From positions 3,038,001 through 3,102,000 of the forward strand of contig NZ_CP128361.1 in assembly GCF_030345075.1 (NCBI RefSeq): a stretch of 64,000 nt of DNA, read 5' to 3'. The notes under the pieces were generated by a model. It saw nothing but the letters and a program-made list of their open reading frames with translations. It ran no database searches and was not told the DNA's origin. The translations under genes were made by a program, and so were the position numbers. The DNA comes from Solwaraspora sp. WMMA2065 (GTDB lineage Bacteria; Actinomycetota; Actinomycetes; Mycobacteriales; Micromonosporaceae). Below are positions 858 through 15,799 of the stretch, one piece after another. Position 1 is the stretch's first letter. Each line of letters starts with the position of its first letter.

Positions 858-1546
858 CGGGGCGCTCCGGTGACGCTGGCGACGGCCTGCTCGACCAGGT
901 CGGCGACGTCGCGGGGCCGGACCCGGGGGGTGAAGTGACTGCCGCCGACCTCGGAAATGGTGGCACCGGCACGGGCGGCCATGTCCCGTTGGGTGTCCGG
1001 CCGCAGTGTCCTGTCCTCGGCCGCGACCAGATACCAGGACGGCTTGTCGCGCCAGGCGGGCACCCCGGTGGGCTGCGCGAAGATGGCGTCGGCGCTGGGG
1101 CGCGAGTCGGCGTCGAAGTTGTCCCGTTCGGCTTCCGGCACGTCCCAGCCGATCTCCGCCCAGTACTCGGGGCTGTGTTCCGAGGCCCATTCGCCGTTGG
1201 GGCCACGCCGCATGTGCCGGCTGACCTCGGCCGGCGGGTAGCGGCCGATGATGTCCTGCACCGACTCGTCCTCGTCGGGGGCGAACGCGCAGACGTAGAC
1301 GAGCCCGACGACCCGGATGTCGCGCCCGACGTTGGTGATCACGACGCCGCCGTAGGAGTGCCCGACCAGCAGCACCGGCCCGGCGCAGTCAGCCAGCACG
1401 GCGGTGGTGTTGGCGACGTCCTCGACGAGCGAGTTCATCGGATTGGTGACCAGGTGGACCCGGTGCCCGGCGGCGCGCAGCAACGGTGCCACGCGGGCCC
1501 AGGTGCTCGGGGTGCCGCCGGCGCCGTGCACCAGCACGATATCCAT
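854..1546 (-). CDS. Alpha/beta hydrolase inside the ABC importer operon
   Basis: A 230-residue cytoplasmic alpha/beta-hydrolase of the AB_hydrolase_6 (EstA/salicylate-esterase-like) type. The oxyanion-loop motif HGAG is at residues 7-10, the nucleophile elbow GHSYGG places Ser64, and Asp178 (AAEDRT) and His204 (GGSHF) complete the triad. There is no signal peptide. It sits between the DppB-type permease gene (7-bp gap) and the ATPase gene (4-bp overlap), so it is an integral part of the importer operon. This position suggests that it hydrolyses an ester or amide bond of the imported compound, which is inference. The start at 1546 leaves a complete N-terminal beta strand (MDIVLVHGAGG). Confidence 0.88.
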   Translation of the reverse strand: MDIVLVHGAGGTPSTWARVAPLLRAAGHRVHLVTNPMNSLVEDVANTTAVLADCAGPVLLVGHSYGGVVITNVGRDIRVVGLVYVCAFAPDEDESVQDIIGRYPPAEVSRHMRRGPNGEWASEHSPEYWAEIGWDVPEAERDNFDADSRPSADAIFAQPTGVPAWRDKPSWYLVAAEDRTLRPDTQRDMAARAGATISEVGGSHFTPRVRPRDVADLVEQAVASVTGAPR

Positions 1547-1553: not shown

Positions 1554-2606
1554 TCATCCTTTCCGTAGGCGCGGGTCCAGGACCAGGTAGAACAGGTCGA
1601 CCGCTGCGTTGACCAGCACGAACAGCAGTGCGATCGCCAGCGCGGCGCCCTGCACCACCGGGTAGTCGCGTTGCAGCACCGAGCTGACCAGCAGGTTGCC
1701 GACGCCGGGATAGGAGAAGACGGTCTCGGTGATCACCGAACCGCCGAGCAGCGAGCCGAATTGCAGACCGAGCACGGTCACGATGGGCAGGCCGGCGTTG
1801 CGCAGCACGTGGCGGCGCAGGATGGTCCGCTCCCGCAGCCCTTTCATCCGGGCGGTCCGCACGAAGTCGTCGCTGAGTACCTCCAGCACCGAGGCCCGCA
1901 CGATCCGGGTGATGAAGCCGGCCATCGCCAGCGCGAGGGTGGTGGCCGGCAGGATCAGGTACTGCAGCCACGGCCCGACCAGCTCCGGCCGGTCCTGCAG
2001 GATCGCGTCGAGCAGCACGAAGTTGGTGGTGGGCTGGTAGTCGAGCTGGCTGGGCAGCCGACCGATCACCGGCATCCAGCGCAGCCACACCCCGAAGATC
2101 ACGATGCTCAGTACGCCGAGGGCGAACCAGGGCAGCGAGAAGCTGACCGTGGCGATGGACCGGGTGGTCGTGTCGACCCAGGTGTCCTTGCGCAGCGCGG
2201 CGATCACCCCGGTGACGACCCCGATCAGGACGGCGATCAGCATCGCCGCGACGGTCAGCTCGATCGTCGCCGGTAGTGCCCCGCCGAGCAGGTCCAGCAC
2301 GCTGTTGCCGCCGTAGAAGGAGCGCCCGAGATCGAGGCCGAGCAGGTCGCCGAGGTAGCGCAGGTACTGCTCCCAGATCGGCCGGTCCAGACCGAGCGCT
2401 TCGTTGATCCGGGCCTCGTTGGCCGAGATCTGCTCGGCGCTGAGCCCTTGGGTACCGCTGGCCGCGAGGGTGGACGACGGCGAGCCGGGTAGCTGGCGGA
2501 TGGCCAGGAACACCAGGGAGGCCAGGACGAACAGCACCACCGGCACGCTGGCCAGCCGGCGCATCGTGAGCATCGGCAGCGATCTGCCGCGCAGCAGCCG
2601 CATCAT
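1554..2606 (-). CDS. Peptide-type ABC transporter permease, DppB/OppB family
   Basis: A 350-residue inner-membrane permease with the DppB layout: an N-terminal membrane helix (PVVLFVLASLVFLAIRQLPG), a long periplasmic loop containing LGLDRPIWEQYLRYLGDLL, then a five-helix core. The coupling-helix EAA motif appears as VRTARMKGLRERTILRRH. The start at 2606 (ATGATG) overlaps the stop of the DppC-type gene by four bases. It pairs with the DppC-type subunit to form the transmembrane channel of the importer. The gene order is binding protein, DppC, DppB, hydrolase, ATPase; the two permeases are in reverse of the usual dppBC order. Confidence 0.94.
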   Translation of the reverse strand: MMRLLRGRSLPMLTMRRLASVPVVLFVLASLVFLAIRQLPGSPSSTLAASGTQGLSAEQISANEARINEALGLDRPIWEQYLRYLGDLLGLDLGRSFYGGNSVLDLLGGALPATIELTVAAMLIAVLIGVVTGVIAALRKDTWVDTTTRSIATVSFSLPWFALGVLSIVIFGVWLRWMPVIGRLPSQLDYQPTTNFVLLDAILQDRPELVGPWLQYLILPATTLALAMAGFITRIVRASVLEVLSDDFVRTARMKGLRERTILRRHVLRNAGLPIVTVLGLQFGSLLGGSVITETVFSYPGVGNLLVSSVLQRDYPVVQGAALAIALLFVLVNAAVDLFYLVLDPRLRKG

Positions 2607-3472
2607 CGGCGGCTCCTCGGGTCCAGCGCGTCACGCAGGTCGTCGCCGACGAAGTTGCTGGCGACCACGAAGATCAGCGTCAACGCGGCGGGCAGCACCG
2701 CCATCCGGGGTGCCGAGTAGATGAACTCCTGCCCGGCCTGCACCATGTAGCCCCAGTCCGGGGTGGGTGGCTGGATGCCCAGGCCCAGGTAGGACAGGCC
2801 GGCGGCGAATCCGGCCGCCACCGACAGGGTCATGACGACCTGGGCGAGCAACGGGCCGACGATGTTGGGCAGGATCTCCTGGACCATGATCCGGGGCGAC
2901 CGGGTGCCGCCGAGCCGGGCGGCGAGCACGTAGTCGCGGGCTGCTTCCCGGGCGGTCAACGCCCGGGCCAGCCGGGCCAGGCCGGGCGACAGCGCGACAC
3001 CGACACCGACCACCAGGCTGCGTACGCCCGGTCCGCTGGCCGCCACGACCAGGATGATCAGCAACATGGACGGGAAGGCGAGCCCGACGTCGGTGATCCG
3101 CATCAGGATCTGCTCGCCCCAGCCGCCGAGGTAGCCGGCGAGCATGCCGACGGTGGTGCCGATGGCCGCGGCGACGGCGGTGGCGAGGAAGGCGACCAGC
3201 AGCAGCGGGCGGGCGCCGTACACGAGCCTGGCAAGGAAGTCTCGGCCGAGGTCGTCGGTGCCGAGCGGATGCCCGGCGGTGCCGAACCCGGCGAGGGTGA
3301 CGTTGCTCTGTCGCTCCGGGTCGGCGCCGACCAGCAGCGGTCCGATGGTCGCCATCAGCACGAAGCCGACGACCACCAGCCAGGAGACGGTGGCCAGCCA
3401 GGACCGGGCGATGGAGCGCCGCGCGTAGGCGGCTCTCCATCGCCCGACCGGCCGCGCCCCTGCGACCGTCAC
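2603..3472 (-). CDS. Peptide-type ABC transporter permease, DppC/OppC family
   Basis: A 289-residue permease of the DppC/OppC family. It has the characteristic N-terminal helix followed by the GTDDLGRDFLARLVYGAR segment that precedes the permease core, an EAA loop (AARLGGTRSPRIMVQEILPN), and a C-terminal YLGLGIQPPTPDWGYM motif typical of DppC proteins. The GTG start at 3472 follows a GGGGGA ribosome site. The gene lies 33 bp downstream of the binding-protein gene and overlaps the next permease by four bases, so all are read as one transcript from the promoter near 5200. Confidence 0.94.
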   Translation of the reverse strand: MTVAGARPVGRWRAAYARRSIARSWLATVSWLVVVGFVLMATIGPLLVGADPERQSNVTLAGFGTAGHPLGTDDLGRDFLARLVYGARPLLLVAFLATAVAAAIGTTVGMLAGYLGGWGEQILMRITDVGLAFPSMLLIILVVAASGPGVRSLVVGVGVALSPGLARLARALTAREAARDYVLAARLGGTRSPRIMVQEILPNIVGPLLAQVVMTLSVAAGFAAGLSYLGLGIQPPTPDWGYMVQAGQEFIYSAPRMAVLPAALTLIFVVASNFVGDDLRDALDPRSRR

Positions 3473-3505: not shown

Positions 3506-5152
3506 TCAGACACTGGCGTTCTCCATGAAGCAGCGGTGGTTGCCGAGCGCGGCGACGTTGGCGCCTTCGACGTTCGCCCCGGTGACCACCGGGTTCGCCG
3601 AGTAGCAGAGCATGGACAGCACCATGTACTGCTCGGCGAAGCGGCGCTGGACGTCGGTGTACGCGGCGGTGCGCTCGTCACCGTTGGGCAGGTTCTTCGC
3701 GGCGGCCAGGTCGTCGGCGAACGCCTCCGAGCCGGGCAGCGTGTTGAGTCCGGAGGTGAAGTCGCCGTACACCCCGGACGGCAGGCCCATCGCCCCGATC
3801 ATGTTGTCCGGGTCCGGGATGTAGGAGTTGCGCTCCCAGATCATCACCTCGTGGAACTCGTCCTCCGGGTCGAGCAGCCGGCTGAAGTAGGTGGCCGGGT
3901 CGACCGAGTCGCTCACGACGGTCAACCCGATGTCGGTGAGGTTCTGCGCGACGATCTGCGCCGCGCGGGGATGCCAGGAGTCGCTTGCCGCCATCAGCGC
4001 CACCTGCCGGCCGGTGGCGCCGGCCGCCTCGATCAGCCGCCGGGCCTCGTCCGGATCGAACCGACTCAGATCGGCCAGGCTCGGGTCGTAGCCGTCCTGC
4101 GACGGCGGGATCGTGTAGCCGTCGGGCAGCGCGCCGATGCCGAAGAACGCCTGGGCGATGATCGCTTCCCGGTCGATCGCCAGGTTGATCGCCTGGCGCA
4201 CCTCCAGCTCCGGGATCCGCCGGGCGTCGATCATCATCATCGCGTCGAAGCTGTACGGCGTCTCGTGGAAGGTCACCGCGTCGTCGGCCTTGAGCTGCTC
4301 GACCGCCGAGTACGGGGTGAACTGGGTGGCGGACAGGTCGCCGCTGAGCAGCGAGCTGACGATGGTGGAGGGGTCCTGGACCTGTTGCATCACCAGCCGG
4401 TCGACCTTGGGCCGGCCGGCGCGGTAGTCCTCGAACGCGGTCAGCACCACCTGCTGCCCGGCGGTCGCCGAGGAGAACTGGAACGGGCCGGTGCCGACCA
4501 GGTTCTTGCCGATGTCAGCGCCGTACTCGGCGAGTGCAGCGGAGGAGATGATCCGGCCGCCGATGTCGGAGAGCCGGTTGAGCACGGTGGCGTCAGGGCT
4601 GTTGAGCACCATCACCACGGTGTACTCGTCCGGAGCGTCCAGCGAGGCGACGTTGGCGCCGAGGCTGCGCAGCGGCCGGGAAGACCCCTCAGGCAGCGTC
4701 GGGTCGTCCTCGTTGAACTGCCGACCGAGGCTGGCCAGCACGTCCGCCGAGGTGAAGGTGGTGCCGTCGTGGAAGGTCACACCTTGACGCAGAGTGAAGG
4801 TGTAGGTCAGCCCGTCGTCGGAGATCTCCCAGCTCTCGGCGAGGTCAGCCTGCGGCTCGTTGGTCTCGAAAGAGATGAAGGTCAGTCCACGGCAGATGCA
4901 GTCGACCGCCATCCAGTCGCCCAGTGACGTGTAGAAAGCGGGGTCGTTGACGGCGCTGGTGGCGTCGATGCCGAGCGTGAGAGTGCCGCCGCTGCTCGTG
5001 CCGTCGTCGCCGTCTTCGCTGCCATCGGAGGCGACGCCGCAGGCGGCGAGGAGGTTGCTGGCGCCGAAGCCGAGACCGAGCAGACCGGTGCCGCGCAGCA
5101 TCGCGCGACGGCTTATCAGATTCTGCGGGAGTTTGCGGGGATCGTCCGACAT
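3506..5152 (-). CDS. Family 5 extracellular solute-binding lipoprotein of the ABC importer
   Basis: A 548-residue SBP_bac_5 protein and the first gene of the importer operon. The N-terminus carries a twin-arginine-like motif (SRRAMLRG, Arg15-Arg16), a hydrophobic stretch and a lipobox LLAAC with Cys38 as the lipidation site, so export is probably by Tat with anchoring outside the membrane. The body has family hallmarks: DLAESWEISDDGLTYTFTLRQGVTFHDG split around residues 103-130 and GTGPFQF in the middle. Family members bind peptides, but also opines, glycosides and other amines; the ligand here is unknown. The 5' region carries the TTGGATCCAA operator at 5205-5214, 53-62 bp upstream of the start codon. 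Confidence 0.95.
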   Translation of the reverse strand: MSDDPRKLPQNLISRRAMLRGTGLLGLGFGASNLLAACGVASDGSEDGDDGTSSGGTLTLGIDATSAVNDPAFYTSLGDWMAVDCICRGLTFISFETNEPQADLAESWEISDDGLTYTFTLRQGVTFHDGTTFTSADVLASLGRQFNEDDPTLPEGSSRPLRSLGANVASLDAPDEYTVVMVLNSPDATVLNRLSDIGGRIISSAALAEYGADIGKNLVGTGPFQFSSATAGQQVVLTAFEDYRAGRPKVDRLVMQQVQDPSTIVSSLLSGDLSATQFTPYSAVEQLKADDAVTFHETPYSFDAMMMIDARRIPELEVRQAINLAIDREAIIAQAFFGIGALPDGYTIPPSQDGYDPSLADLSRFDPDEARRLIEAAGATGRQVALMAASDSWHPRAAQIVAQNLTDIGLTVVSDSVDPATYFSRLLDPEDEFHEVMIWERNSYIPDPDNMIGAMGLPSGVYGDFTSGLNTLPGSEAFADDLAAAKNLPNGDERTAAYTDVQRRFAEQYMVLSMLCYSANPVVTGANVEGANVAALGNHRCFMENASV

Positions 5153-5186
5153 AGTGCGCTCCTCGGCGGGGTATGGGACGAAGATG

Positions 5187-5217
5187 GATTAAATTTCATT
5201 TGGATTGGATCCAAAAT
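5187..5217 (-). promoter_or_regulatory. Promoter/operator of the importer operon (TTGGATCCAA dyad over the -35)
   Basis: The perfect 10-bp dyad TTGGATCCAA occupies 5205-5214, with an extra half site TTGGAT at 5200-5205. Read on the minus strand, TTGGAT (5214-5209) could serve as the -35, with an A/T-rich -10 candidate TTTAAT (5193-5188) 15-16 bp downstream, followed by the GAGGAG ribosome site and the start at 5152. A repressor on this dyad would block the promoter. The same dyad occurs near the GntR gene and the Rieske gene. The promoter boxes are inferred; the dyad is seen directly. Confidence 0.6.
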
Positions 5218-5333
5218 CATCATCTGCGGTACCCAATTCGGGTCCGTGTCGCGATTGTGAACGTCTGGTGTCGGGATATCGAGAGTGGACAGGGGTCCCC
5301 GTGGCCGGCGCGCTGGCCGACGCACCGGCCGGG

Positions 5334-7346
5334 TCAGTCGGCCGGCACCACGTCATTTCCAGTGGAGCAGCAGGCACTGCCCGCACTGCGGGCGGCAGCC
5401 AAATCCGGCACGTCCATCGCCGGATTGCGGTCGAAGAAGCCGTCCGGTTCGAGGATCATGTGGATCGCGTCCACCGGCATCACCGGCCACTGCTCCGGGC
5501 GCGGGAAATGGTGGGTGCCGAGCACCGGCCACAGCACCAGCTCCGCACCGTCGATCGACCGGTCCTGGCGCTGCCAGACCTGCACACCGTCGTCGCCCGG
5601 CTCGGCATGGTTGGGATAGCGACCACCGAGGAACTGCTCCTGCGGATCGTACGGGGTGGCCCACAGGTGCTGGTGGATGAACGGTGCCCGACGGGCCATC
5701 ACCGAGTCCGGCCGGGCGAACGGTCGAGTGGTGTTCGGCAGCAGCAGCCGGTAGGCCGTCGGCTCACCGTACCGGTTGGTCCGGGTGGTGCTCTCCACCC
5801 GCCAGCGGCGAGCCGACGCCGGGTCGGTGCGGCGCGCGGCCTGGGACTCACGCAGCAACGGGGTACGCACGTTGCGTACCGCGTTGCCGTACGGGTCGAG
5901 CGTCGGGTCGGTCTCGCCCTCGGCATGCTCCTCGACCAGCCGGTTGCGCGATCCGTCCACCGCCATGTCCAGGCGTAGCCCGAAGTAGTGCTGGTGGGTC
6001 GGGGTCTGCACGTTCGACGCGACGATCCGGCCGTAGCGCACCTCGTCGCCGTCGGCGATACCGGAGGCCGACAGCATCCCGGTCAACTTGACCTCCAGCT
6101 CGATCCGGCCATCCTGATAGAGCGACCAGTAGAAGCCGTAGTCGTAGTTGGCCACGGTCTGAAAGTTGGAGATGACCAACCGCCGCGAGCGACGCACCTG
6201 GCTGACTCCGCGGCGCAGGTCGTTGTGCTTCCAGAGGATGCTGTGGTCCTCCTCGTGCATGCAGATCGCGTTCGGGATGGTCACCGGGTCCCCGTCGCCA
6301 CCGAGATAGGCGGTGTCGAAGTAGTAGATGACGCCGAGGCAGTCGCAGCCGAGGGCGAGCGAGTTGGTCAGCGGCCCGGCCCCGTACTCGCCCCAGTCGA
6401 AGAAGTTCTTGCGGTACTGGGTGGAGTTGGGGTCGAGGTACGGCACGTACATCTCGTTGCAGGCGGCCCGCTTGACCACCGGCCGCCCCTGGAACTCCAG
6501 GTCGTACAGGACCAGGCCCTCGCGGTGGGTGAAGCCGACCCGCAACTGCCAGCCCTGCCAGCTGACCTGCCAGCCGTCGACGTCGAAACTCGGACCGTCG
6601 GGCTGCACGACATCCAACGGCCGCAGGCCCGGCCGGGTCGGCCAGGCGTCGGCCTCCAGCGGGCCGGCCTCTTCGGAAATCGGCACCACGCCGTGGTCCT
6701 CGACCTCCAGGACCTCCATGGTCGCCATGTCGATGATTGGCACCACGCCCTGCACCGGGCGGACGTAGCCGTTGTCGCCCTCGTCGACACGGTGCCAGAC
6801 GGTGCCCCAGGTCAGCCGCCGGTCGGCGTAGCGCTTCGGCTCGAAGCCGCCCATCGACTCGGCGTCGACCATCACCAGTGAGACGTCGTGGATGCCCCGC
6901 TTGGCGAGCACCTCGCGGAACAGTGGGCTCTGCCGGCAGGCCTGGGCGGCCGCGCGAGCCTCCTCGGAGGTGATGCCGGGCCGACGCGGGTCGAGTGGAC
7001 GCCAGTCCAGGCAGCGGTCCGCAACGTCCTCGTCTCCAGCGTGGTCCGACGGCGCACCGTCGGCCCGGCTCCCGGCGGCCAGCGCGACGTCGATCTCCCA
7101 GGCAGTGCCGGCGGCGTGGTCCATGGCCACCAGTCCGAGTCGGACCTCCCCGGCCGCCGCCGCGCCGGCCACGACGGCGCGGGCGTGTGCCTCGTCCAGC
7201 GTGGCCCCCCAGAACCGGGTCCGCTCGCCGAGGCGACCGTCGGCACGCGCGACGGCGACGGCACGGGCGATCTCGGCCGGGCTGGGCGGATCGAGCGGAT
7301 GACTGCGGTGGTTGCGCCCGTCCGGGCTGGGGTGGCACGCGCTCAC
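5334..7346 (-). CDS. Copper-containing primary-amine oxidase (TPQ enzyme)
   Basis: A 670-residue copper amine oxidase that oxidises a primary amine to an aldehyde, ammonia and hydrogen peroxide. The topaquinone precursor Tyr401 lies in VANYDYGFYW. The catalytic base is Asp317 (FFDWGEYG), the copper ligands are His451 and His453 (PTHQHYFG), and the third ligand is His612 (GTHHFPRPEQW). All residues needed for cofactor biogenesis and catalysis are present, and the length matches bacterial enzymes of the Arthrobacter type. There is no signal peptide, so it is cytoplasmic. The GTG start at 7346 has AGGAG six bases upstream. It is transcribed toward the importer operon, and it diverges from the GntR gene across a 308-bp region holding the shared operator. 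Confidence 0.96.
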   Translation of the reverse strand: MSACHPSPDGRNHRSHPLDPPSPAEIARAVAVARADGRLGERTRFWGATLDEAHARAVVAGAAAAGEVRLGLVAMDHAAGTAWEIDVALAAGSRADGAPSDHAGDEDVADRCLDWRPLDPRRPGITSEEARAAAQACRQSPLFREVLAKRGIHDVSLVMVDAESMGGFEPKRYADRRLTWGTVWHRVDEGDNGYVRPVQGVVPIIDMATMEVLEVEDHGVVPISEEAGPLEADAWPTRPGLRPLDVVQPDGPSFDVDGWQVSWQGWQLRVGFTHREGLVLYDLEFQGRPVVKRAACNEMYVPYLDPNSTQYRKNFFDWGEYGAGPLTNSLALGCDCLGVIYYFDTAYLGGDGDPVTIPNAICMHEEDHSILWKHNDLRRGVSQVRRSRRLVISNFQTVANYDYGFYWSLYQDGRIELEVKLTGMLSASGIADGDEVRYGRIVASNVQTPTHQHYFGLRLDMAVDGSRNRLVEEHAEGETDPTLDPYGNAVRNVRTPLLRESQAARRTDPASARRWRVESTTRTNRYGEPTAYRLLLPNTTRPFARPDSVMARRAPFIHQHLWATPYDPQEQFLGGRYPNHAEPGDDGVQVWQRQDRSIDGAELVLWPVLGTHHFPRPEQWPVMPVDAIHMILEPDGFFDRNPAMDVPDLAAARSAGSACCSTGNDVVPAD

Positions 7347-7464
7347 GATTGCTCCTGTCGCCGTCGCGGGAGTCGTTCCGATGCGGTCCGGCTCGTCTGG
7401 GGTCGGTCTGTGTCGCGTCGTGGTGGCTGCGGCGGGCCGGTGCTTCCTAAGAACTCCCTGGCCA

Positions 7465-7485
7465 AGGTAGTCTCGGATACTACCT
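7465..7485. promoter_or_regulatory. Inverted repeat AGGTAGT-N7-ACTACCT in the amine oxidase/gntR divergent region
   Basis: Perfect 7-bp arms AGGTAGT (7465-7471) and ACTACCT (7479-7485) are separated by 7 bp. It lies 8 bp from the TTGGATCCAA operator and differs from it in sequence, so it may bind a second regulator or form part of the promoter for the amine oxidase gene. No role is demonstrated. Confidence 0.45.
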
Positions 7486-7492
7486 CAGGATC

Positions 7493-7518
7493 TTTGGATC
7501 CAAAACCGGGATCCAAAG
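7493..7518. promoter_or_regulatory. GntR-type operator, full dyad plus second half site
   Basis: TTTGGATCCAAA (7493-7504) is a perfect 12-bp palindrome. A second copy, GGGATCCAAAG (7508-7518), keeps one intact half, and the two dyad centres are 13 bp apart. The pair sits between the divergent amine oxidase gene (start 7346) and the regulator gene (start 7655), consistent with autoregulation and control of the oxidase. The core matches those at 5205-5214 and 15383-15392. Confidence 0.7.
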
Positions 7519-7654
7519 CGAAATGTACGGGACCCGCAGGGTCGACGGCCGGCTTGCTATCGTGACATCCACATCGCACCACTGTGGAGAAGACCGCAGC
7601 CGGGCCGGCACCCGGCCGGCTGCGCCGCACACCGATCAGACAGGGGCACCGGGC

Positions 7655-8410
7655 ATGCCAGTCAGCTCGACGGAAAACACCAGCAGTGCCCTCGTCGACG
7701 CCACCGCCGCGAAGATCCGCGCCAAGATCATGTCCGGCGAGATCCCGATCGGTGCCCAACTGCGCCAGGCCGAGCTGGCCAAGCTGCTCGGGGTCAGCCG
7801 CACCCCGGTCCGGGAGGCGCTGCGCCAACTGCAGACCGGTGGGCTGATCGAGGTGGTGCCGCACCGTGGCGCGGTGGTCCGGGTGCCGGCGCCGTGGGAG
7901 GTCCGGGAAGCCTACGAGGTCCGTGCGGAGCTGGAGGCGCTGGCCTGCGAACGGGCGGTCAGCCGGATCACCGACGACGTCCTGCACGAGCTGCGGGAGG
8001 CCAACTCGCTGCTGCGACGTACCGAGCAGGCCGCCCGGGGCAGCATCCCGCAGCGACGGGTCGAGGACGACCCGGGGGTCGCCCGCGCCCGGGTCGCCCT
8101 GGCCGGCTCCACCAACGCCGCCAACGACCGGTTCCACACCCTCATTCACCAGGTGGCCGGCAACGACTGGCTGGCCAGGGTGATCAAGGAGATCAACGAG
8201 GCATTCCCGCGTAACGTCTCGGCGCTGGTGTTGCAGGACAACCCTCGCCACCGCGACGACAACTTCCACGAGCACGAGCGGATCGTCGCCGCGCTCACCG
8301 CGGAGGACGGCGAACGCGCGCGGCGTGAGATGCAGGCCCATGTGATCAGCGCCGGTGAGCAGTTGGCTCGCTGGTACGAGCGGCGTTCGGCAACGGTGTT
8401 CCGGGGTTGA
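7655..8410 (+). CDS. GntR family transcriptional regulator (FCD/VanR type), proposed regulator of the cluster
   Basis: A 251-residue FCD-subfamily GntR protein. The N-terminal winged helix has the standard recognition segment LLGVSRTPVREALRQL, followed by the wing residues PHRGAVV. The C-terminal all-helical FCD domain retains the metal-site residues in NDRFHTLIHQ, FHEHERIV and REMQAHV. I chose the ATG at 7655, which follows an AGGGGC stretch and begins just before the DNA-binding domain; an upstream in-frame ATG at 7523 would add 44 unstructured residues. Its promoter region carries the TTGGATCCAA dyad, and FCD regulators typically bind short palindromes of this kind. It overlaps the convergent aminotransferase/oxidase gene by 65 bp at the 3' ends. 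Confidence 0.92.
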   Translation: MPVSSTENTSSALVDATAAKIRAKIMSGEIPIGAQLRQAELAKLLGVSRTPVREALRQLQTGGLIEVVPHRGAVVRVPAPWEVREAYEVRAELEALACERAVSRITDDVLHELREANSLLRRTEQAARGSIPQRRVEDDPGVARARVALAGSTNAANDRFHTLIHQVAGNDWLARVIKEINEAFPRNVSALVLQDNPRHRDDNFHEHERIVAALTAEDGERARREMQAHVISAGEQLARWYERRSATVFRG

Positions 8411-10931
8411 CCCGGTCGCCGGCCCAGTCCCCGGGCGGCACCCCGTCGACCCCCATCGCCGCCGGAGCGAGAAACTCCAGGTCCGGCCGGGGCATCCCGG
8501 TCGCCAGGTCGGCCAACGCGGCACCGATCGCCGGGCCGAACTTGAACCCGTGCCCGGAGCAGGCCGCCGCGACCAGCGCCTGCGGATGCGCCGGCAACGC
8601 CCCGACCGCGAACCGGTTGCCCGGCGCCATGGTGTAGCGGCAGGCCAGTTCTGCGGTGACCGGGCCGTCGGCGGCCGGCAGGAAACGACGGGCGACGGAG
8701 AGCAACTCGGCCCGCTCGGTGGCGGTCACCGGACCGGGCGGCCGGCTCAGGTCGTCGACCGGACCATGGTCGAATCCCACCTTGACGGCGTCCGGACCGT
8801 GCGCCGGGATGCCGTAGAGCAGACCGACGCCGGGGACGTCGACCGAGAACGGGCCGAGCGCCGGCGGGGCCAGCAGCGCCGGGGTGGACGAGCCGATGTG
8901 GATGTTGACGATCCGCACGGTGGTCAACCGGCTGGCGAACTCCGGCACCAGGTCGGCGGTCCACGGTCCGGCACAGATGACCAGCCGGTCGGCGAGCAGG
9001 TCACCGGAGTCGGTATGTACCCGGACCCCGGCACCGTCCGGGTGCCAACCGGTCACCCGGCAGCCGTCGCGACGGTGCACCCCGGCGGCCCTACCGAGCC
9101 CGGTCAGCGCGTCCATCGCGGCGGCGGCGTCGATCACGCCGGCCGCCGGATCGTGTACGGCCACCATGTCGGCCCCGAGCACCAGGCCCGGCGCGATGCC
9201 GGCGGCCTGGTTGGCGTCGACCAGGACACAGTCCGGCCCGCGCAGGGTGCCGCTGGTCCGGGCCGGTCGGGCGTACAGGCCGCCGACAGTGCTGACCAAC
9301 CGGCGACCGGCGGCCTGTTCCAGCTCGCGCCAACCGGTGTACGCGCGGTCCACCAGGTCGTCCCAGACCGGCGACGGATAGGCGCGACGGATCATCCGGG
9401 TCTGTCCGTGTGACGATCCTTCCGTGTGCCCGGCCGGCAGCCGGTCAAGCTGGATCACCCGGACACCGCGTGCGACGAGTGCCCAGGCCGCGCTGCGTCC
9501 GTGGACGCCGGCACCGATGACGATCACGTCGGCCCGGCGGTCTGCACCGGTCAGCAGCGCGGGAGCCGGGCCCGGCGCTGGCGGCACCGGCGGCACAGCG
9601 TCCGGCGTGGCAGTCGCCGTCGGTGGCGTCGGTACGCCGGTGGCCGCCGGGCGGGCCAGTCGGGCGAGCAGCGCGTCCACCTCGGTGTCGTCGTTGTAGA
9701 CGTGCACGGAGGCTCGGACCACCGCAGGCAGGCCGCGCCGACCCAGGTCCCACTGGCCGTGGCTGGCCGGCACGGCGACCAGGTGCAGGCCGGCGGCGCG
9801 CAACGTGCGTACCGTGGTGGCCGGCTCCTCGCCGTCGCGGACGAAGGTGACGATGCCACCGCCGGCCGCCGGCGGGTCGACCACGGTCACTCCGGGCAGC
9901 TCGGCCAGCCCGGCCCGCAGCCGGGCGGCCAACTGGCTGACGTACGCCGAGATGGCGTCGACGCCGAGGGCAAGCGCCTCGGTCAGCGCGGCGCCCAGGC
10001 CGAGCCGCAACGCGTGCGACGCCTCCCAGGTCTCGTACCGTCGGGCACCGGGCAGCAGGTCGTACTCCTCGTCGCCGGTCCATCGGGCCCCGCGTACGTC
10101 CGGGGTCAACGGACGGGCGCGTTCACGCAGCGCCGGGTCGAGATAGAGCAGCCCGGTGCCGCGCGGTCCACGCAGGAACTTGCGGCCGGTGGCGACCAGG
10201 ATGTCGGCGTGCATCGCGCCGACGTCGACGGGCAGTTGGCCGACCGACTGGGTGGCGTCGACCAGCAGCGGTACGCCGGCAGCGGCGACCCGGGCGCCGA
10301 TCTGCGCGACCGGTTCGATCAGCGCCGACGAGGTCGGTACGTGGGCGACAGTGACCAGCGCGGCCGGCTGCCGCAGCGCCTGCTCCAACTGGTGCAGGTC
10401 GACGCCGCCCGAGTCGTCGGTGGGCAGCACCTCGACGCTGATGCCCCGGGCGCGGCGCAGCTCGAGCAGGTGCAGTGCCGAGCTGACGTAGCTGGACGCG
10501 GAGGCGAGGATCCGGTCGCCGGGGCCGAGCCGCAGCGCGTCGATCGCCCGGTGCCACGCCACGGTGGCACTCTCCACCAGGGCGATGTCCTCTCCTGTCG
10601 CGCCGAGCAGCCGGCCAGCCAGGTGGTAGACGTCGGCGGTCCGCTCGGCGGCGGCCTCGGCCGCCTCGTAGCCGCCGAGCCGCGACTCGAGCCGCAGGTG
10701 GTCGATGACCGTGTCGAGTACGGCGAGGCTGGGCAGTGCGGCGCCGGCGGCGTTGAGGTGGTGGGCCAGGGTCGCGCCGGGAGTGGCGGCCCTCAGCGCC
10801 GCAGGGTCCAGCGTCAGCGCGCCCGCCGGCACAGACGCCGGGCCCAGCGGCACGGGCGCCGGGTCGGCGGGCTCCGCGACCGCACCCGCCGGCCCGGTCT
10901 GGGATGCAGAGTCTCTCAAGATGGATCCCAT
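8346..10931 (-). CDS. Fusion: class V PLP aminotransferase-like domain + sarcosine oxidase-like FAD domain
   Basis: One 861-residue polypeptide with two enzyme domains (numbering from the ATG at 10931). Residues about 35-425 are a class V aminotransferase/cysteine-desulfurase fold with the cofactor aspartate in LLVDATQSVGQ and the Schiff-base lysine (about 251) in ATGRKFLRGPRGTGLL. A Pro/Ala-rich linker (about 430-465) leads to a DAO-family flavoprotein with GxGxxG in DVIVIGAGVHGRSA. This domain keeps monomeric sarcosine oxidase signatures: SHGQTRMIRRAY, lysine about 717 in DAVKVGFDHG, the likely covalent-FAD cysteine about 764 in ACRYTMAPG, and CSGHGFKFGP. It is the last gene of the Rieske operon. 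A GTG at 10985 would add 18 residues; neither start has a clear ribosome site. The substrate is unknown. Confidence 0.88.
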   Translation of the reverse strand: MGSILRDSASQTGPAGAVAEPADPAPVPLGPASVPAGALTLDPAALRAATPGATLAHHLNAAGAALPSLAVLDTVIDHLRLESRLGGYEAAEAAAERTADVYHLAGRLLGATGEDIALVESATVAWHRAIDALRLGPGDRILASASSYVSSALHLLELRRARGISVEVLPTDDSGGVDLHQLEQALRQPAALVTVAHVPTSSALIEPVAQIGARVAAAGVPLLVDATQSVGQLPVDVGAMHADILVATGRKFLRGPRGTGLLYLDPALRERARPLTPDVRGARWTGDEEYDLLPGARRYETWEASHALRLGLGAALTEALALGVDAISAYVSQLAARLRAGLAELPGVTVVDPPAAGGGIVTFVRDGEEPATTVRTLRAAGLHLVAVPASHGQWDLGRRGLPAVVRASVHVYNDDTEVDALLARLARPAATGVPTPPTATATPDAVPPVPPAPGPAPALLTGADRRADVIVIGAGVHGRSAAWALVARGVRVIQLDRLPAGHTEGSSHGQTRMIRRAYPSPVWDDLVDRAYTGWRELEQAAGRRLVSTVGGLYARPARTSGTLRGPDCVLVDANQAAGIAPGLVLGADMVAVHDPAAGVIDAAAAMDALTGLGRAAGVHRRDGCRVTGWHPDGAGVRVHTDSGDLLADRLVICAGPWTADLVPEFASRLTTVRIVNIHIGSSTPALLAPPALGPFSVDVPGVGLLYGIPAHGPDAVKVGFDHGPVDDLSRPPGPVTATERAELLSVARRFLPAADGPVTAELACRYTMAPGNRFAVGALPAHPQALVAAACSGHGFKFGPAIGAALADLATGMPRPDLEFLAPAAMGVDGVPPGDWAGDRVNPGTPLPNAARTSEPTAHRR

Positions 10932-10991
10932 CGGTGATCGAGGCGGTGCCCGGTCCGGTCGACGGCACCTCGCCGGACCGGGCACCGCCGG

Positions 10992-12446
10992 TCAGAGCGC
11001 GACGACGACGCCCTTGCGCTCGCAGTACGAATGCAGGGCTTCGTCGCCCAAATCCCGGCCCAGACCGGAGTCCCCGACCCCGCCGAAGGACAGCGCCGGG
11101 TCGAAGATGTTGTACGTGTTCACCCAGACCGTGCCGACCCGCAGCACGGCCGCCATCCGGTGTGCCCGGGACAGGTCCCGGGTCCACACCCCGGCGGCCA
11201 GCCCGTACGACGTGTCGTTGCCGATCGCGACCGCCTCGTCCTCATCGTCGAAGGCGATCACCCCGGTCACCGGCCCGAAGATCTCCTCCCGGGCGATGGC
11301 CATGTCATTGCGTACCCCGGTGAACAGGGTCGGCTCGACGAAGTAGCCGGGCCGGTCCGGCACCCCGCCGCCGACCGCGACCGTGGCCCCTTCCCGGATG
11401 CCGGTCTCGATGTACGACAGCACCTGCTGGCGCTGCTCCTCGGAGACCAGCGGGCCGACGGTCACCCCGCCGTCCAGTCCGTTGCCCAGCGGCACCCGGC
11501 GGGTCGCTGCGGCCAGCCGCTCGGTCATCTCGTCCAGGATCGACCGCTGCACCAGCAGCCGGCTGCCGGCGGTGCACATCTGCCCGGAGTGGCCGAACGA
11601 CGCCCGCATCGCGGTCAGCACCGCGGCGTCCAGGTCGGCGTCGGCGAAGACAATGTTCGGGCTCTTCCCACCCAACTCCAGGGTGAGCCGTTTCGTCGTC
11701 GCCGCCGCGCCGGCCATCACCAACCGGCCCACCTCAGTGGAGCCGGTGAACGACACCTTCGCCACGCCCGGGTGGGCGACCAGCGCCGCGCCGACCTCGC
11801 CGTCGCCGGTGAGCACGTTGAACACCCCCGGCGGCACGCCGGCCTCGGCGGCCAGGGCGGCCACCCGCAACATGGTCAGCGGGGTCTGCTCGGCCGGCTT
11901 GACCACCACCGGGCAGCCGGCGGCCAGCGCCGGGGCGATCTTGAAACAGCCGGTCATGATCGGAAAGTTCCACGGCAGGATCAGCGCCGCCACACCGACC
12001 GGCTCCAGCACCGTGTAGACGTGGTGGCCGCCGCCGTCGATCGGCACGACGGTGCCGGTCAGCCTGCTGGTCGCCCCGGCGAAGTGCCGGAACGCCCGGG
12101 CCGCCGCGCCGGTGTCGGCCCGGGAACGTTCGATCGGCTTGCCGTTGTCCCGGGTCTCCAGCACCGCCAACTCCTCGAGGTGCGCCTCGATCAGGTCGGC
12201 GAGCCGGTGCAGCACCCGGGTGCGCTCCAGCGGAGCCAGACCGCTCCACCGCCGGTCGGCGTACGCCCGGGTGGCGGCGGCCACCGCCGCGTCCACGTCC
12301 TCGGCGGTGGCCTGGGCGACCCGGCTGATCACCGCGCCGGTGGACGGGTCACGCACCTCGATCAGCGCGCGCCCACCGGGGGCGATCCACCCGCCGTCGA
12401 CGTGGAACGGCTCCAGGTCGGCCAGCGGGGCGACAGACGACGTCAT
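10992..12446 (-). CDS. NAD(P)-dependent aldehyde dehydrogenase
   Basis: A 484-residue ALDH superfamily enzyme with all catalytic residues: the oxyanion asparagine in LPWNFPIM, the cofactor motif FTGSTEVG, general base Glu257 in LELGGKSPN, and nucleophile Cys291 in GQMCTAGSR. It is closest in style to betaine-aldehyde and gamma-aminobutyraldehyde-type dehydrogenases, and would oxidise an aldehyde produced by an amine oxidase to the acid. The ATG at 12446 lies 12 bp after the ligase stop with a GAGGGAG ribosome site, and its own stop is within a few bases of the next gene, so it is the third gene of a four-gene operon. Cellular location is the cytoplasm. Confidence 0.95.
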   Translation of the reverse strand: MTSSVAPLADLEPFHVDGGWIAPGGRALIEVRDPSTGAVISRVAQATAEDVDAAVAAATRAYADRRWSGLAPLERTRVLHRLADLIEAHLEELAVLETRDNGKPIERSRADTGAAARAFRHFAGATSRLTGTVVPIDGGGHHVYTVLEPVGVAALILPWNFPIMTGCFKIAPALAAGCPVVVKPAEQTPLTMLRVAALAAEAGVPPGVFNVLTGDGEVGAALVAHPGVAKVSFTGSTEVGRLVMAGAAATTKRLTLELGGKSPNIVFADADLDAAVLTAMRASFGHSGQMCTAGSRLLVQRSILDEMTERLAAATRRVPLGNGLDGGVTVGPLVSEEQRQQVLSYIETGIREGATVAVGGGVPDRPGYFVEPTLFTGVRNDMAIAREEIFGPVTGVIAFDDEDEAVAIGNDTSYGLAAGVWTRDLSRAHRMAAVLRVGTVWVNTYNIFDPALSFGGVGDSGLGRDLGDEALHSYCERKGVVVAL

Positions 12447-12458
12447 CGGGCTACTCCC

Positions 12459-13991
12459 TCAGATCAGATCGAAGTACTCGCGCTGCTCCCAGTCGGAGAC
12501 GTGCGCGAGGTAGCGGGCGAACTCGCGGCGCTTGAGCGTCGCGTACCAGGAGATCACCGGGGCGCCGAGCGCGGCGGTGAACGCCGGATCGGCCTCCAGC
12601 GCGGTCAGCGCCTCGGCCAGCGAGGCCGGCAGCCGGGGCGCGTCGGCGGCGTACGGATCCTGCACCGCCGGCGGCGGGGCGAGCCGCCGGTCGATCCCGT
12701 CCAGGCCACTGACCAGCTGCGACGCGATATACAGGTACGGATTGGCGGCCGGCTCGCCGCACCGGTTCTCCAGCCGTACGCCGGTGTCGGAGCCGGCACC
12801 GACGGCCCGGACCATAGCCCCCTTGTTGTCGACCCCCCAGGCCACCCGGTCCGGCGCGAGGGAAAACGGCAGGTAGCGCTTGTAGCCGTTGACCGTCGGG
12901 GTGGCGAAGGCGGCTGCCGCACCGGCGTGCTCCAGCAGACCGGCGAGGTAGTGCCCGGCGACCGGGGAGAGCGCCTCCCCCGGCGTGACCGGGTCGAACG
13001 CCGCCGTGCCGGTGGCCAGCTCGCGCAGCGACTGGTGCAGGTGCCACCCGGTGGAGGCGGTCTGGGCACCGGCCGGGCGGGACATGAACGTGGCGTGGTA
13101 GCCGTGCCGGCGGCAGAGCTGGCGGATCGCCGAGCGGGCCAGCAGCACCTGGTCGGCGGCGACCGCCGCGTCCCCGGCGGTCATGGTGATCTCGAACTGG
13201 CTCGGCCCGAACTCCAGCTCCAGGGAGCGCAGCGGCAGGTCGAGCCGGGTCAGCCCGTGGTGCAGCAGTTGGACGACCTCGTCGGCGCGGTCCAGCCCGT
13301 CCTCGTGCAGCAGTTGCGCGCCCCGGCTCAGCGGCCGGGCGCCGCTGGCCCGGCCGGGCGCACCCGGCCGGCCGACCTGGTCGTCGTCGAGCCCGCCGTC
13401 GGTGGGACCGTCGGTGGCGAAGACGTGGAACTCCAGCTCGGCGCCGACGGTCATCGCGTACCCGGCGGCGGCCAACCGGTCGAGCTGCGTGCGCAGCAGG
13501 CCACGGGTGCAGAACGGCACCGCGGCACCGTCGGGGAACCGCAGGTCGCACAGCAACCAGCCGGTCCGTGGCGCCCACGGCAGCACCCGGAACGTGGTCG
13601 GGTCGGGCACCAGCACGATGTCCCCGGCACCGGCGAACCCGCTCACCCCGACGCCGGTGTCGGCGGCGAAGACCGGGAAGACCGACGCGCCGGACGGGTC
13701 CTTGAGCAGCAGCGACGACGGCGCGGTCACGCCGGACCGCAGTGCCGTGGCGGCGGCTTCCCGGGTCAGCGTCTTGCCACGCAGCACGCCGTGCTGGTCG
13801 GCGAAAGAGAACCGGATCAGCTCGATACCGAGCTCGTCGACGACCCGGCGCAGCTGGCCGGCGGCGGCGTACTGGGTGTCGGTCCACAGCTGGTGACGGT
13901 CGATGAAGCCGCCCCGGTCGGCGGCGAGCATCGGCACCACGCGGCGGCCGTCCCCGCCGTCGGCGACGGGCCGTTCGTCGAGGCTACGCAT
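12459..13991 (-). CDS. Glutamine synthetase-family ligase (gamma-glutamyl-amine ligase-like)
   Basis: A 510-residue member of the glutamine synthetase superfamily, which joins glutamate to ammonia or to an amine using ATP. The metal-binding segments are present (GAELEFHVF; ELEFGPSQFEI), as are the ATP/glutamate-site segments GWHLHQSL, NGYKRYLPFSL and RLENRCGEP. The adenylylation loop of housekeeping GlnA is not evident. Proteins of this branch include gamma-glutamylputrescine synthetase (PuuA), IpuC and the aniline ligases. Its position beside an oxygenase, an aldehyde dehydrogenase and a DAO-type oxidase supports a catabolic, not nitrogen-assimilatory, role. The ATG at 13991 overlaps the Rieske stop by eight bases; a longer frame starting at 14078 lies inside that gene and is less likely. 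Confidence 0.88.
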   Translation of the reverse strand: MRSLDERPVADGGDGRRVVPMLAADRGGFIDRHQLWTDTQYAAAGQLRRVVDELGIELIRFSFADQHGVLRGKTLTREAAATALRSGVTAPSSLLLKDPSGASVFPVFAADTGVGVSGFAGAGDIVLVPDPTTFRVLPWAPRTGWLLCDLRFPDGAAVPFCTRGLLRTQLDRLAAAGYAMTVGAELEFHVFATDGPTDGGLDDDQVGRPGAPGRASGARPLSRGAQLLHEDGLDRADEVVQLLHHGLTRLDLPLRSLELEFGPSQFEITMTAGDAAVAADQVLLARSAIRQLCRRHGYHATFMSRPAGAQTASTGWHLHQSLRELATGTAAFDPVTPGEALSPVAGHYLAGLLEHAGAAAAFATPTVNGYKRYLPFSLAPDRVAWGVDNKGAMVRAVGAGSDTGVRLENRCGEPAANPYLYIASQLVSGLDGIDRRLAPPPAVQDPYAADAPRLPASLAEALTALEADPAFTAALGAPVISWYATLKRREFARYLAHVSDWEQREYFDLI

Positions 13992-15345
13992 CGCCGGCCG
14001 CCGACCGCGTCGGAGCGCCGACCGCCGACCGCGACGGGGTGCCGGCCCACGGGGAGCCGGCCCGCCGCTGCGCCTCACGTTCGCGCCAGGTCTGCTCCCA
14101 GCCGTCGGTCGGGGCCACGGTGTCGACGGCGAGCGGGCCGGTCAGCTCGGCGGCCGCAGCCTCGTCGGCCGGGCGGGCCGGGACCGGGTTGCCGGCCTCG
14201 AAGGCGTCAATGGCGCGCAGCAGCAGCCGGCGGTTCGCGGTCACCGCCCGGTCGGAGACACCGAGTCGCTCCACGGTGCGGTCCTGGATCGGGCCCATGC
14301 TCTCCACCGCCCACTGGTCGTGGACGTTGATGTCCAGCCCCATTCCGGTGTAGGTCAGGTCCCGCTGCTCGGCCGGGTCGAAGCCCCAGTTGTTGGCCCG
14401 GTTGCGCAGCGGCCGGTAGTCCGGCAGGGAGACCTCGTCGAGCCGCTGGGCGAGCAGGGTCTGCTTGTCGGTCGGCTCGGCGAAGTCGTAAAAGATCATG
14501 TACCAGTAGTGGTGGTAGTCGTCGATCGGCACGTGCCACTGGCAGAAAACCTTGTCGTTGCCGAACGGGACCACGAACGCGTTGGGGAAGACCAGGTTCG
14601 TGATGCGTACGTGGCGGATCTCGTCGGTGAGCTGGCGCAGCGCGTACACCCGCAGGCCGTGCTCGGCCTGCTCGACCTCGATGTCCGGCCGGTAGGCGTC
14701 GCCGACCAGCTTGGACAGCTTCTGCCCGGTGCCGGCGACCTCCTCGCTGAACTGCTGGCCGTAGACGTCGCGCGGATCCTCGTCGATGAACCGGTGCAGG
14801 AACGAGACGTGGCTGGGGTCGATGCCGCCCTCGACGCCCTGCAGCCAGTTGCACTCCCACAGCCCTTTGAAGGCGAAGGTGTACTCGTCGGGTGCCTGGA
14901 AGCAGTCGTAGTGCGGCATCGGCGGCGGGTCGCCCTCGCCGAGGTAGGCGAAGACGATGCCGTTGCGCTCGACGCACGGGTAGCTGGGGATGCGCACCTT
15001 GCTGGCGAAGGTGCTGTGCGGCGGCTCGGCCGGCTGCTCCAGGCAGCGCCCGTCCGGCCCGTACAGCCAACCGTGGTAGAGGCAGCGCAGCCCGCCGTCC
15101 TCGTGCCGGCCGTACGCCAGGTCGACGCCCCGGTGCGCGCAGAACCGCCCGACCAGCGACCAGCCGCCGTCGGCCTGCTTGAACAGCACCAGGTCCTCGC
15201 CGAGCAGCCGGACCGGTTTGACCGGCCGCTGCGGGTCCATCTCCGACACCAGCGCCGCCGGCTGCCAGTACGCGCGCATCAGCCGGCCGAGCGGTGTGCC
15301 CGGCCCGGAGCGGGTGATCCGCTCGTTCTCCTCGCGCCGCAGCAT
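13984..15345 (-). CDS. Rieske non-heme iron oxygenase, alpha subunit
   Basis: A 453-residue Rieske oxygenase of the phthalate-4,5-dioxygenase/LigX-like group, beginning MLRREENERITRSGPGTP as that group does. The [2Fe-2S] cluster ligands are Cys69, His71, Cys88 and His91 (FCAHRG and CLYHGW). The mononuclear iron site shows His179 and His184 in DPSHVSFLHR. It would hydroxylate or O/N-dealkylate its substrate. A separate reductase is needed to feed electrons and none is encoded in the visible cluster, so one must come from elsewhere. It is the first gene of the operon, with a GAGAGGGG ribosome site and the TTGGATCCAA operator 38-48 bp upstream. Confidence 0.92.
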   Translation of the reverse strand: MLRREENERITRSGPGTPLGRLMRAYWQPAALVSEMDPQRPVKPVRLLGEDLVLFKQADGGWSLVGRFCAHRGVDLAYGRHEDGGLRCLYHGWLYGPDGRCLEQPAEPPHSTFASKVRIPSYPCVERNGIVFAYLGEGDPPPMPHYDCFQAPDEYTFAFKGLWECNWLQGVEGGIDPSHVSFLHRFIDEDPRDVYGQQFSEEVAGTGQKLSKLVGDAYRPDIEVEQAEHGLRVYALRQLTDEIRHVRITNLVFPNAFVVPFGNDKVFCQWHVPIDDYHHYWYMIFYDFAEPTDKQTLLAQRLDEVSLPDYRPLRNRANNWGFDPAEQRDLTYTGMGLDINVHDQWAVESMGPIQDRTVERLGVSDRAVTANRRLLLRAIDAFEAGNPVPARPADEAAAAELTGPLAVDTVAPTDGWEQTWREREAQRRAGSPWAGTPSRSAVGAPTRSAAGDA

Positions 15346-15369
15346 GGCACCCCTCTCAGCTAGGCATCC

Positions 15370-15393
15370 GATCCAGCATGCATTGGATCCAAT
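15370..15393. promoter_or_regulatory. GntR-type operator of the Rieske operon
   Basis: ATTGGATCCAAT (15382-15393) is a perfect 12-bp palindrome, 37 bp upstream of the Rieske start. An additional half site GATCCA lies at 15370-15375. It is the third instance of the core dyad shared with the importer operon and the amine oxidase/gntR region, which ties the three transcription units into one predicted regulon. Confidence 0.7.
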
Positions 15394-15456
15394 CCTGGCA
15401 TAGATGTGGGCGGCGCGATAGTTGCAGCATCCCGCTATCTGCGGAATCGCGGACGG

Positions 15457-15780
15457 TCACTCCAGCGTCACCGCCGGTCCGCTCGATCTGCTGGCGCTCG
15501 CCCGCACCACGAACCGGTCAGCGCCGACCCACGCCCGGACCAGCGCCGACACCAGCACGTCGGCCAGCCGCAACCGGCGGGCCAGGCGGAACAACCCGGA
15601 CGACCGACCGGCGAACAGCGGCCACGTCAAAGCCCTGGAGTCGAGGCACATCCGGGTGGTGGCCCGGATCCCGTGACGGGCCGCCAGGACATGCTGGTCC
15701 GAGAACGGAAAAGGGAAGACGGTACGGCGACCGACCCCGGGCAACTCGACCCGCGTCCGACGCGGCCAGCACCGGCCGTG
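15457..15780 (-). pseudogene. Remnant of a saccharopine dehydrogenase-like gene (3' part)
   Basis: A reading frame without a convincing start ends at 15457. It contains VELPGVGRRTVFPFPFSDQH, TTRMCLDSRALTW and VGADRFVVRASA, which resemble the C-terminal part of actinobacterial saccharopine-dehydrogenase-type reductases. The N-terminal Rossmann domain is absent, and just upstream the sequence turns into a LysR remnant on the other strand. I recognise the family only from these short stretches, so the identification is tentative. It lies directly behind the Rieske promoter in a decayed region. Confidence 0.35.
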
Positions 15781-15799
15781 CGCACCGACGCGGTCGCGG

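Follow-up and report, generated by a model that had tools for sequence, protein, structure and literature searches.

Atu1419, a VanR/FCD repressor of Agrobacterium fabrum, is described as recognizing a 10-bp palindrome, ATGTATACAT, and as repressing two promoter regions of a catabolic region that share three copies of it; Arg45, a residue common to FadR, contacts the G at half-position 3 (PMC7797058). For the FadR subfamily, the catalogue of Suvorova et al. (2015) reports the consensus TKGT-N2/3-ACMA (PMC4494728), and BusR, also of the GntR family, is presented as a "molecular ruler" that recognizes a bipartite motif with a fixed 22-bp separation on one DNA face (PMC8517857). On the enzymatic side, NpaA1 and AtdA1 are reported from pathways for 1-naphthylamine and aniline that combine gamma-glutamylation with a Rieske dioxygenase (PMC11335346). 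Here we analyze a 64,000-nucleotide stretch of the genome of Solwaraspora sp. WMMA2065 (contig NZ_CP128361.1, positions 3,038,001 to 3,102,000; hereafter the window), in which a cluster of genes fitting amine catabolism carries the 10-bp palindrome TTGGATCCAA (the dyad) at three upstream regions and encodes a GntR/FCD protein (gntR; Table 1). The dyad is very likely the operator of this protein, which would repress three transcription units and be released from them by a pathway metabolite.

The sequence-only reading of this stretch had proposed that one palindromic operator links three transcription units, and that its exact copies lie ahead of the importer genes, between the amine oxidase gene and gntR, and ahead of the Rieske oxygenase gene. 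A scan of the window located the three dyads at these places, including the promoter region of gntR itself, and no other copy at either zero or one mismatch; at least three matches occurred in none of 100 shuffles of the window (mean 0.34 at up to one mismatch). Each of three units, whose limits gene spacing suggests, has a dyad ahead of its leading gene, and a sigma-70 scan of positions 5100-7700 found no promoter. Among eight close relatives, window included, the importer and Rieske dyads are exact in all eight and the dyad between amine oxidase and gntR in seven, the eighth (L123) having a one-mismatch site.

Random copies elsewhere proved to be rare, as the proposal had demanded. Four exact copies are present in the whole genome (a single contig of 6,743,220 bp), three of them in the cluster, against none of the reversed-pattern control; about 0.9 would be expected per genome at the 71.7% GC of the window, and the probability of three of the four falling inside 10.2 kb is about 5e-5 after a rough correction for multiple windows. 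When up to one mismatch is allowed there are 19 sites genome-wide and 10 for the reversed control, so that the single-mismatch sites elsewhere in the genome are mostly background. The fourth exact copy (genome position 4818353, L004:1501-1510) is found 92 bp upstream of an open reading frame that, judged by eye from its reading, is a candidate for a secreted trypsin-like protein. Lying as it does in DNA common to two congeners, this copy is unsupported as a fourth regulon member and is taken for a chance occurrence; two further congeners have a stretch resembling this DNA that is coding in appearance, again by eye.

Scanning for relatives of the Rieske protein yielded 80 loci; the 25 top-ranked ones (L037-L061, at least 71% identity) are all actinobacterial. 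In these 25 loci (512 kb) the dyad occurs 30 times, distributed over 17 of them, against 0.07-0.08 expected under zero-, first- and third-order models. Its observed-to-expected ratio of 366 is the highest among 10-bp palindromes with three or more occurrences, the next one reaching 49, and 29 other palindromes of equal base composition average 0.07 copies in the related loci. The exact dyad is absent from the other 55 loci of the scan, 53 of which are proteobacterial and two (L067 and L086) actinobacterial. Searching 16 related genomes whole, we found 1-7 exact copies in twelve (34 in total) and none in four, the genomes of L047, L060, L061 and L067.

The position of the dyads was assessed in 42 loci, namely the window, 27 related loci and 14 loci from genomes of the family, with congeners included in the counts and L124 left out as it comes from the same genome as L044. 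These loci contain 73 exact and 65 one-mismatch dyads. Sixty-nine of the exact ones fall between 30 bp inside and 300 bp upstream of the mapped start of a cluster gene, a single one of them inside a mapped gene (26 bp past an extrapolated start), and the four exact dyads without a target (L127-L130) lie near the junction of the aldehyde dehydrogenase and aminotransferase-DAO genes. Dyads with at most one mismatch precede the genes for the Rieske protein in 29 of 42 loci, GntR in 28 of 34, the solute-binding protein (SBP) in 20 of 21, the copper amine oxidase in 14 of 34, the unfused class-V aminotransferase in 11 of 14, a PotD-like SBP in 9 of 9, a cupin in 7 of 7, a phosphotriesterase-like protein in 5 of 17 and the aldehyde dehydrogenase in 1 of 31. 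At the importer and Rieske promoters the centres of the exact dyads are 36-84 bp from the start codon. One Agromyces locus (L042:1139-19311) has six exact dyads in 21 kb, placed also at cupin, PotD-like and cyclase-like genes.

Co-occurrence with GntR points to the repressor encoded in the cluster as the very probable reader of the dyad. Dyads with zero or one mismatch near mapped genes are present in 23 of the 27 related loci and in none of the other four (L047, L060, L061 and L086). A GntR orthologue is encoded in the same stretch in 19 of the 23 dyad loci (57-74% identity) and elsewhere in the genome in the remaining four (L055, L058, L059 and L067; 61-73%), and the dyad-free loci have no GntR match (L047, L060) or only relatives of 38-40% identity (L061, L086). 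Orthologous clusters thus bear out the sequence-only reading, with dyad and orthologue together in 23 of 23 and neither in 4 of 4, an agreement over 27 of 27 loci whose significance (Fisher p = 5.7e-5) is to be discounted for relatedness and for three metagenome-assembled genomes. In a sample of 150 genomes of the family, in which at most 18 candidates were scored per genome, 16 genomes, that of the window included, match GntR at E <= 1e-30. At least three exact dyads are found in 13 of the 15 others with GntR versus 1 of the 134 without a match; the exception, G042, has its four copies spread over as many contigs and lacks a GntR match at E <= 1e-15. A phylum-wide scan of 396 genomes, with six candidates scored in each, returned the source genome alone at E <= 1e-55 and was not used as evidence of rarity.

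To describe the tolerance of the motif and its pairing we used 34 less redundant loci, a set that omits L124, the congeners L117-L120 and L122, and the relatives L128-L130. The 59 one-mismatch changes at mapped promoters are concentrated at half-position 1 (34) and half-position 2 (19), with six at half-position 4, always G to T, and none at half-positions 3 and 5. The G4 to T change yields TTGTAT, the half-site of the common GntR signature, and TTGGATCCAA itself matches TNG-N4-CNA with GG/CC replacing GT/AC; the variants TTGTATCCAA and TTGGATACAA also occur. For FadR-subfamily regulators, Suvorova et al. (2015) likewise describe operators that are palindromic, control of divergons, sites that come in doubles, and additional weaker half-sites at 7-12 nt from the centre. 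Unlike the reported consensus, GG/CC stands here at the GT/AC step, where the six G4 to T changes are the sole substitution, and GGATCC has no occurrence at the start of a word in the main text of that paper. A literature search for TTGGATCCAA with GntR found no paper, and one for TGGATCCA with GntR and operator returned none on such an operator, as judged by title and start of abstract.

The dyads are also paired at a preferred distance. Around 104 anchor dyads, partners with at most two mismatches within 60 bp lie at 21 bp in 35 cases, at 20 or 22 bp in nine, at 13 bp in six and at 41 and 42 bp once each, where local shuffles predict 0.22 at 20-22 bp, 0.10 at 13 bp and 3.6 over all distances (pairs may count twice). 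With one locus per genus (14 loci) and each pair counted once, 13 of 18 pairs are at 21 bp, two at 20 bp, one at 22 bp and two at 13 bp, where 0.04 are expected per distance; 10 of the 14 genera have paired dyads and 16 of the 18 pairs are at 20-22 bp. A spacing of 21 bp is two helical turns. As described for BusR, there are two motifs at a fixed spacing near two turns, and this is the case in the relatives, although the 22 bp of BusR may be measured otherwise than the start-to-start 21 bp used here. BusR differs in having an RCK_C domain and a coiled-coil ruler and in binding DNA with c-di-AMP, whereas the window protein has an FCD domain. A limited literature search on fixed spacing did not find 21-bp pairing described for an FCD regulator. 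Tentatively, and with somewhat more doubt than trust, we suggest that the FCD-type GntR may act as a two-turn ruler, with two dimers or a tetramer on pairs of GGATCC dyads 21 bp apart, gating an undescribed gamma-glutamylation-coupled Rieske amine pathway over about 14 actinobacterial genera.

The second boxes of the window are weaker than those of the relatives. The sequence-only reading had claimed an extra half site at each dyad, which stands as far as the letters go and only partly as to conservation. The latter was read only from rows whose dyad is exact, which comprise the window and six congeners, joined at sites 1 and 3 by one other family member; the conservation of the dyads is taken from the separate count above. 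At the importer dyad (site 1), TGGAT at 5201 is kept in three of eight rows and TGGAT at 5185, in the exact 21-bp register, in all eight. At the dyad between amine oxidase and gntR (site 2), ATCCA at 7511 is in the 13-bp register and GGATCCAAA is kept in seven of seven rows; here lies a second, degenerate dyad, which reads TTGGATCCAG in two congeners (L121 and L122) and forms with the first the only dyad pair of the window. At the Rieske dyad (site 3), ATCCA at 15371-15375 (16-bp register) is kept in six of eight rows and ATCC at 15366-15369 (21-bp register) in all eight. In the 21-bp register, sites 1 and 3 carry half-boxes only.

The gntR product matches the GntR winged helix (PF00392, 62.9 bits) and the FCD domain (PF07729, 70.5 bits), both over their cut-offs. 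In 35 orthologues the recognition domain is 79-98% identical and the FCD domain 52-96%. Three histidines (His161, His207 and His229) are conserved in 36 of 36 proteins and Asp158 in 97%, and these FCD residues probably bind a metal, in a site like that described for Atu1419, with three histidines and N or D. An AlphaFold2 model (pLDDT 86) retrieved Atu1419 first by E-value in a Foldseek search, with a TM-score of about 0.55 and 26-28% identity; by sequence, the best match is PmiR. VanR regulators are separated from the FadR group by having six rather than seven FCD helices. In the model seven segments follow the wing, with 186-195 and 197-215 almost running into one another, and VanR members outrank FadR in the Foldseek result. 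The 10-bp palindromic site is a further likeness to Atu1419; the motif differs, and so do the double sites, which are 21 (or 13) bp apart here and 109-190 bp apart, with looping, in the description of Atu1419.

Several observations weigh against this interpretation. Thirteen of the 42 loci (L040, L047, L048, L050-L054, L056, L060, L061, L086 and L126) have no dyad with zero or one mismatch near the Rieske start; four of them have none at all, nine have dyads at other genes of the locus, and in several the Rieske gene follows a reductase gene (Fer2/NAD-binding) that has the dyad upstream of it. About 28 of the 34 exact copies in the related genomes are in or within 13 kb of the cluster stretch and six are elsewhere. 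Two family genomes with GntR, G057 and G103, have no exact copy and only one-mismatch sites, which in L044 (a Phytohabitans locus, apparently of the G057 genome) and L125 (from G103) are at the expected promoters; the GntR-negative genomes of the family were scored on at most 18 candidates each. Three of the four loci lacking both elements (L047, L060 and L086) are metagenome-assembled genomes, where the absence of GntR could be a gap, and the loci and genomes are related, so their counts are not independent. One of five untargeted one-mismatch sites alters half-position 5 (L059:16244), the GT/AC step of the FadR-subfamily consensus TKGT/ACMA is not matched by the motif, and by TM-score other GntR structures surpass Atu1419 (7u5q, 0.72; PmiR, 0.61-0.62, with 0.62 for 7xp0).

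That the dyads are conserved by chance or by shared descent of AT-rich promoter DNA, without function, would agree with the relatedness of the loci and with congener promoters that align overall. We give this practically no credence, considering the 30 copies against 0.08 expected, the 21-bp pairing, the position-specific substitutions, the presence of the dyad before different genes in distant genera and its absence from the four actinobacterial loci without the regulator. The dyad might instead be the operator of another regulator encoded elsewhere, with the local GntR merely sitting in the cluster, and the four of 27 loci whose GntR gene is outside the fetched stretch would be compatible with this. 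Such a coincidence appears quite improbable given that none of the 27 loci has a dyad without a GntR orthologue or an orthologue without a dyad, that the dyad so often precedes gntR itself, that the motif is as long as the Atu1419 site and fits TNG-N4-CNA, and that conservation is higher in the DNA-binding domain than in the FCD domain.

More weight, while still unlikely, has the alternative that GntR binds the dyads as an activator or a dual regulator. The dyad of the gntR/amine-oxidase region of the window, at 156-176 bp from the start codons, does not force repression, and for HypR one site is reported to lie more than 60 bp upstream of a transcription start, and one promoter to have lost activity in the deletion. 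Atu1419, in contrast, is a repressor, and the importer and Rieske dyads are so close to the genes that they may overlap the core promoter, their position being relative to start codons and not to mapped promoters. Repression of the cluster by its own GntR protein is the reading we prefer. That the dyad is a regulatory site is strongly supported by the sequence evidence, which establishes the sites, their positions, conservation and spacing and their co-occurrence with the regulator, and on which the proposal of one operator for three units also stands. Binding by GntR, its oligomeric state, repression, the inducer, the substrate and the assignment of the genes to a one-compound pathway are inferred.

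Under repression by GntR, a dimer would bind the 10-bp dyad, with a second dimer often on a second dyad or weaker box 21 bp off, on the same DNA face, and less often at 13 bp. Without inducer the repressor would block the importer unit (SBP, permeases, hydrolase and ATPase), the divergent amine oxidase/gntR unit, which implies autoregulation, and the unit for the Rieske protein, the glutamine synthetase (GS)-like protein, aldehyde dehydrogenase and aminotransferase/oxidase. A pathway metabolite in the metal-type FCD pocket would free the repressor, and amine uptake, gamma-glutamylation/oxygenation and deamination would then switch on together.

The presumed function of the cluster in amine catabolism, also proposed earlier, fits the copper amine oxidase, the aminotransferase-like/DAO fusion and the aldehyde dehydrogenase. 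Compared with solved structures, the GS-like protein matches 8wwu (NpaA1, which gamma-glutamylates aromatic amines) with 425 bits, the next being 188. Against its assignment as GoaS (glutamyl-organic-amine synthetase) count a best NCBIfam match, gamma-glutamylputrescine synthetase, that is below its cut-off, and the low rank of 9qur, which bears the name glutamate--methylamine ligase (148 bits) and is outscored by many chains labelled glutamine synthetase. The acidic amine-binding pair of NpaA1, E232/E234, is kept. The amine tunnel is not (F75 to K, M81 to S, V201 to L, W235 to F, with F86 kept), and the aromatic bottleneck F75/F86/W235 of NpaA1/AtdA1-type GoaS is represented by K, F and F at the aligned positions. 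Since the acidic pair is kept and the aromatic tunnel lost, the protein is probably a gamma-glutamyl-amine synthetase for a different, perhaps more polar, amine. The locus thus resembles the NpaA1/AtdA1 systems in having a GS-like enzyme beside a Rieske oxygenase and departs from them in the tunnel, which does not imply an aniline-like substrate, and in the LigXa type of its Rieske alpha subunit; an aniline or naphthylamine identity of the cluster was rejected on the tunnel residues.

The GlnA4/EpuRI ethanolamine cluster of Streptomyces coelicolor (PMC6529630), compared by gene set only, likewise combines a local repressor, a GS-like gamma-glutamyl-amine synthetase and an aldehyde dehydrogenase. 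Its figure legend names a membrane protein, a short-chain dehydrogenase/reductase, a transporter and a glutamine amidotransferase, with no Rieske protein or copper amine oxidase. Of this set the window cluster has the aldehyde dehydrogenase, the GS-like gene and an ABC-type transporter, and neither the dehydrogenase/reductase nor the amidotransferase; an ethanolamine identity was rejected on these differing gene sets. In the 55 further loci of the Rieske scan (L062-L116), a GS-like gene is present in 52 (missing in L063, L103 and L106), including 50 of the 53 proteobacterial ones, and adjoins the Rieske gene in most, being kilobases off in L091 and L109. As the exact dyad is absent from these loci, the Rieske/GS-like enzyme pair is wider in distribution than the regulator. 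Literature searches for a Rieske plus GS-like pathway found no paper or, judged by title and start of abstract, the systems for aniline, naphthylamine and diphenylamine along with unrelated studies.

Table 1. Positions in the window of the dyads, the cluster genes and neighboring regulator genes.
Feature	Positions	Strand	Remarks
Dyad, putative operator of the importer operon	5205..5214		exact TTGGATCCAA; centre 58 bp before SBP start
Dyad between divergent amine oxidase and gntR	7494..7503		exact; 156 bp to gntR start, 176 bp to amine oxidase start
Second, degenerate dyad	7507..7516		2 mismatches; 13 bp from 7494 dyad
Dyad before Rieske gene	15383..15392		exact; 42 bp upstream of Rieske start
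ABC ATPase, oligopeptide type, truncated by window edge	3..854	-	ABC_tran + oligo_HPY
Alpha/beta hydrolase	854..1546	-	family match
ABC permease, OppB/DppB-like	1554..2606	-	family match
ABC permease, OppC/DppC-like	2603..3472	-	family match
SBP_bac_5 solute-binding protein, first gene of importer operon	3506..5152	-	family match
Copper amine oxidase	5334..7346	-	closest solved relative is phenylethylamine oxidase
gntR, GntR/FCD regulator proposed to recognize the dyad	7655..8410	+	Pfam PF00392 + PF07729
Class-V aminotransferase-like + DAO (N-methyl-Trp oxidase-like) fusion	8346..10985	-	domain matches
Aldehyde dehydrogenase	10992..12446	-	family match
GS-like, probable gamma-glutamyl-amine synthetase (GoaS)	12459..14078	-	closest solved relative is 8wwu (NpaA1)
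Rieske oxygenase alpha subunit (LigXa_C), first gene of its operon	13984..15345	-	9ina 241 bits; phthalate 4,5-dioxygenase 7fhr 199 bits
XRE-cupin regulator	18051-18812		right of cluster
Second GntR-domain gene, short, without FCD match	19439-20092		right of cluster

Read from right to left, the minus strand carries the Rieske, GS-like, aldehyde dehydrogenase and aminotransferase-V/DAO fusion genes, followed by gntR on the plus strand and then the amine oxidase, SBP_bac_5, two permeases, the hydrolase and the ATPase at the window edge. The start of the GS-like gene is more likely near 13991, according to an alignment with L059. gntR and the aminotransferase/DAO fusion are convergent, their 3' ends overlapping by 65 bp (8346-8410), and the two parts of the fusion are adjoining genes in several relatives (L040:1624-4016; L042:1219-3547). 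Other genes in the related loci encode gamma-glutamyltranspeptidase and isochorismatase-type and other hydrolases. Just past the Rieske promoter, an IS605-type OrfB/TnpB-like protein is encoded at 15627-16934 on the minus strand. The GntR protein had been called the only regulator in the cluster, which is correct for 850-15400. Two further regulator genes lie to the right of the cluster (Table 1); a comparison with the related loci, covering the window to 20000, did not pick these up as conserved.

A local GntR regulator with its own operators is an ordinary kind of circuit. Two features are less usual: dyads in the relatives pair sharply at 21 bp, and the Rieske/GS-like core, of which no description was found, is widespread. 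The analysis specifies the operator, the regulator, the targets and the geometry of a concrete putative regulon, the Rieske and GS-like core of the cluster occurs in Proteobacteria as well, and the 21-bp pairing would provide a clean test case for cooperative or ruler-type recognition by an FCD regulator. The operator would turn the discovery of the substrate into a simple screen, in which an amine or metabolite that releases GntR from a short probe would be the signal of the pathway; if the two-turn ruler reading is true, the regulator would be the handle for finding that substrate.

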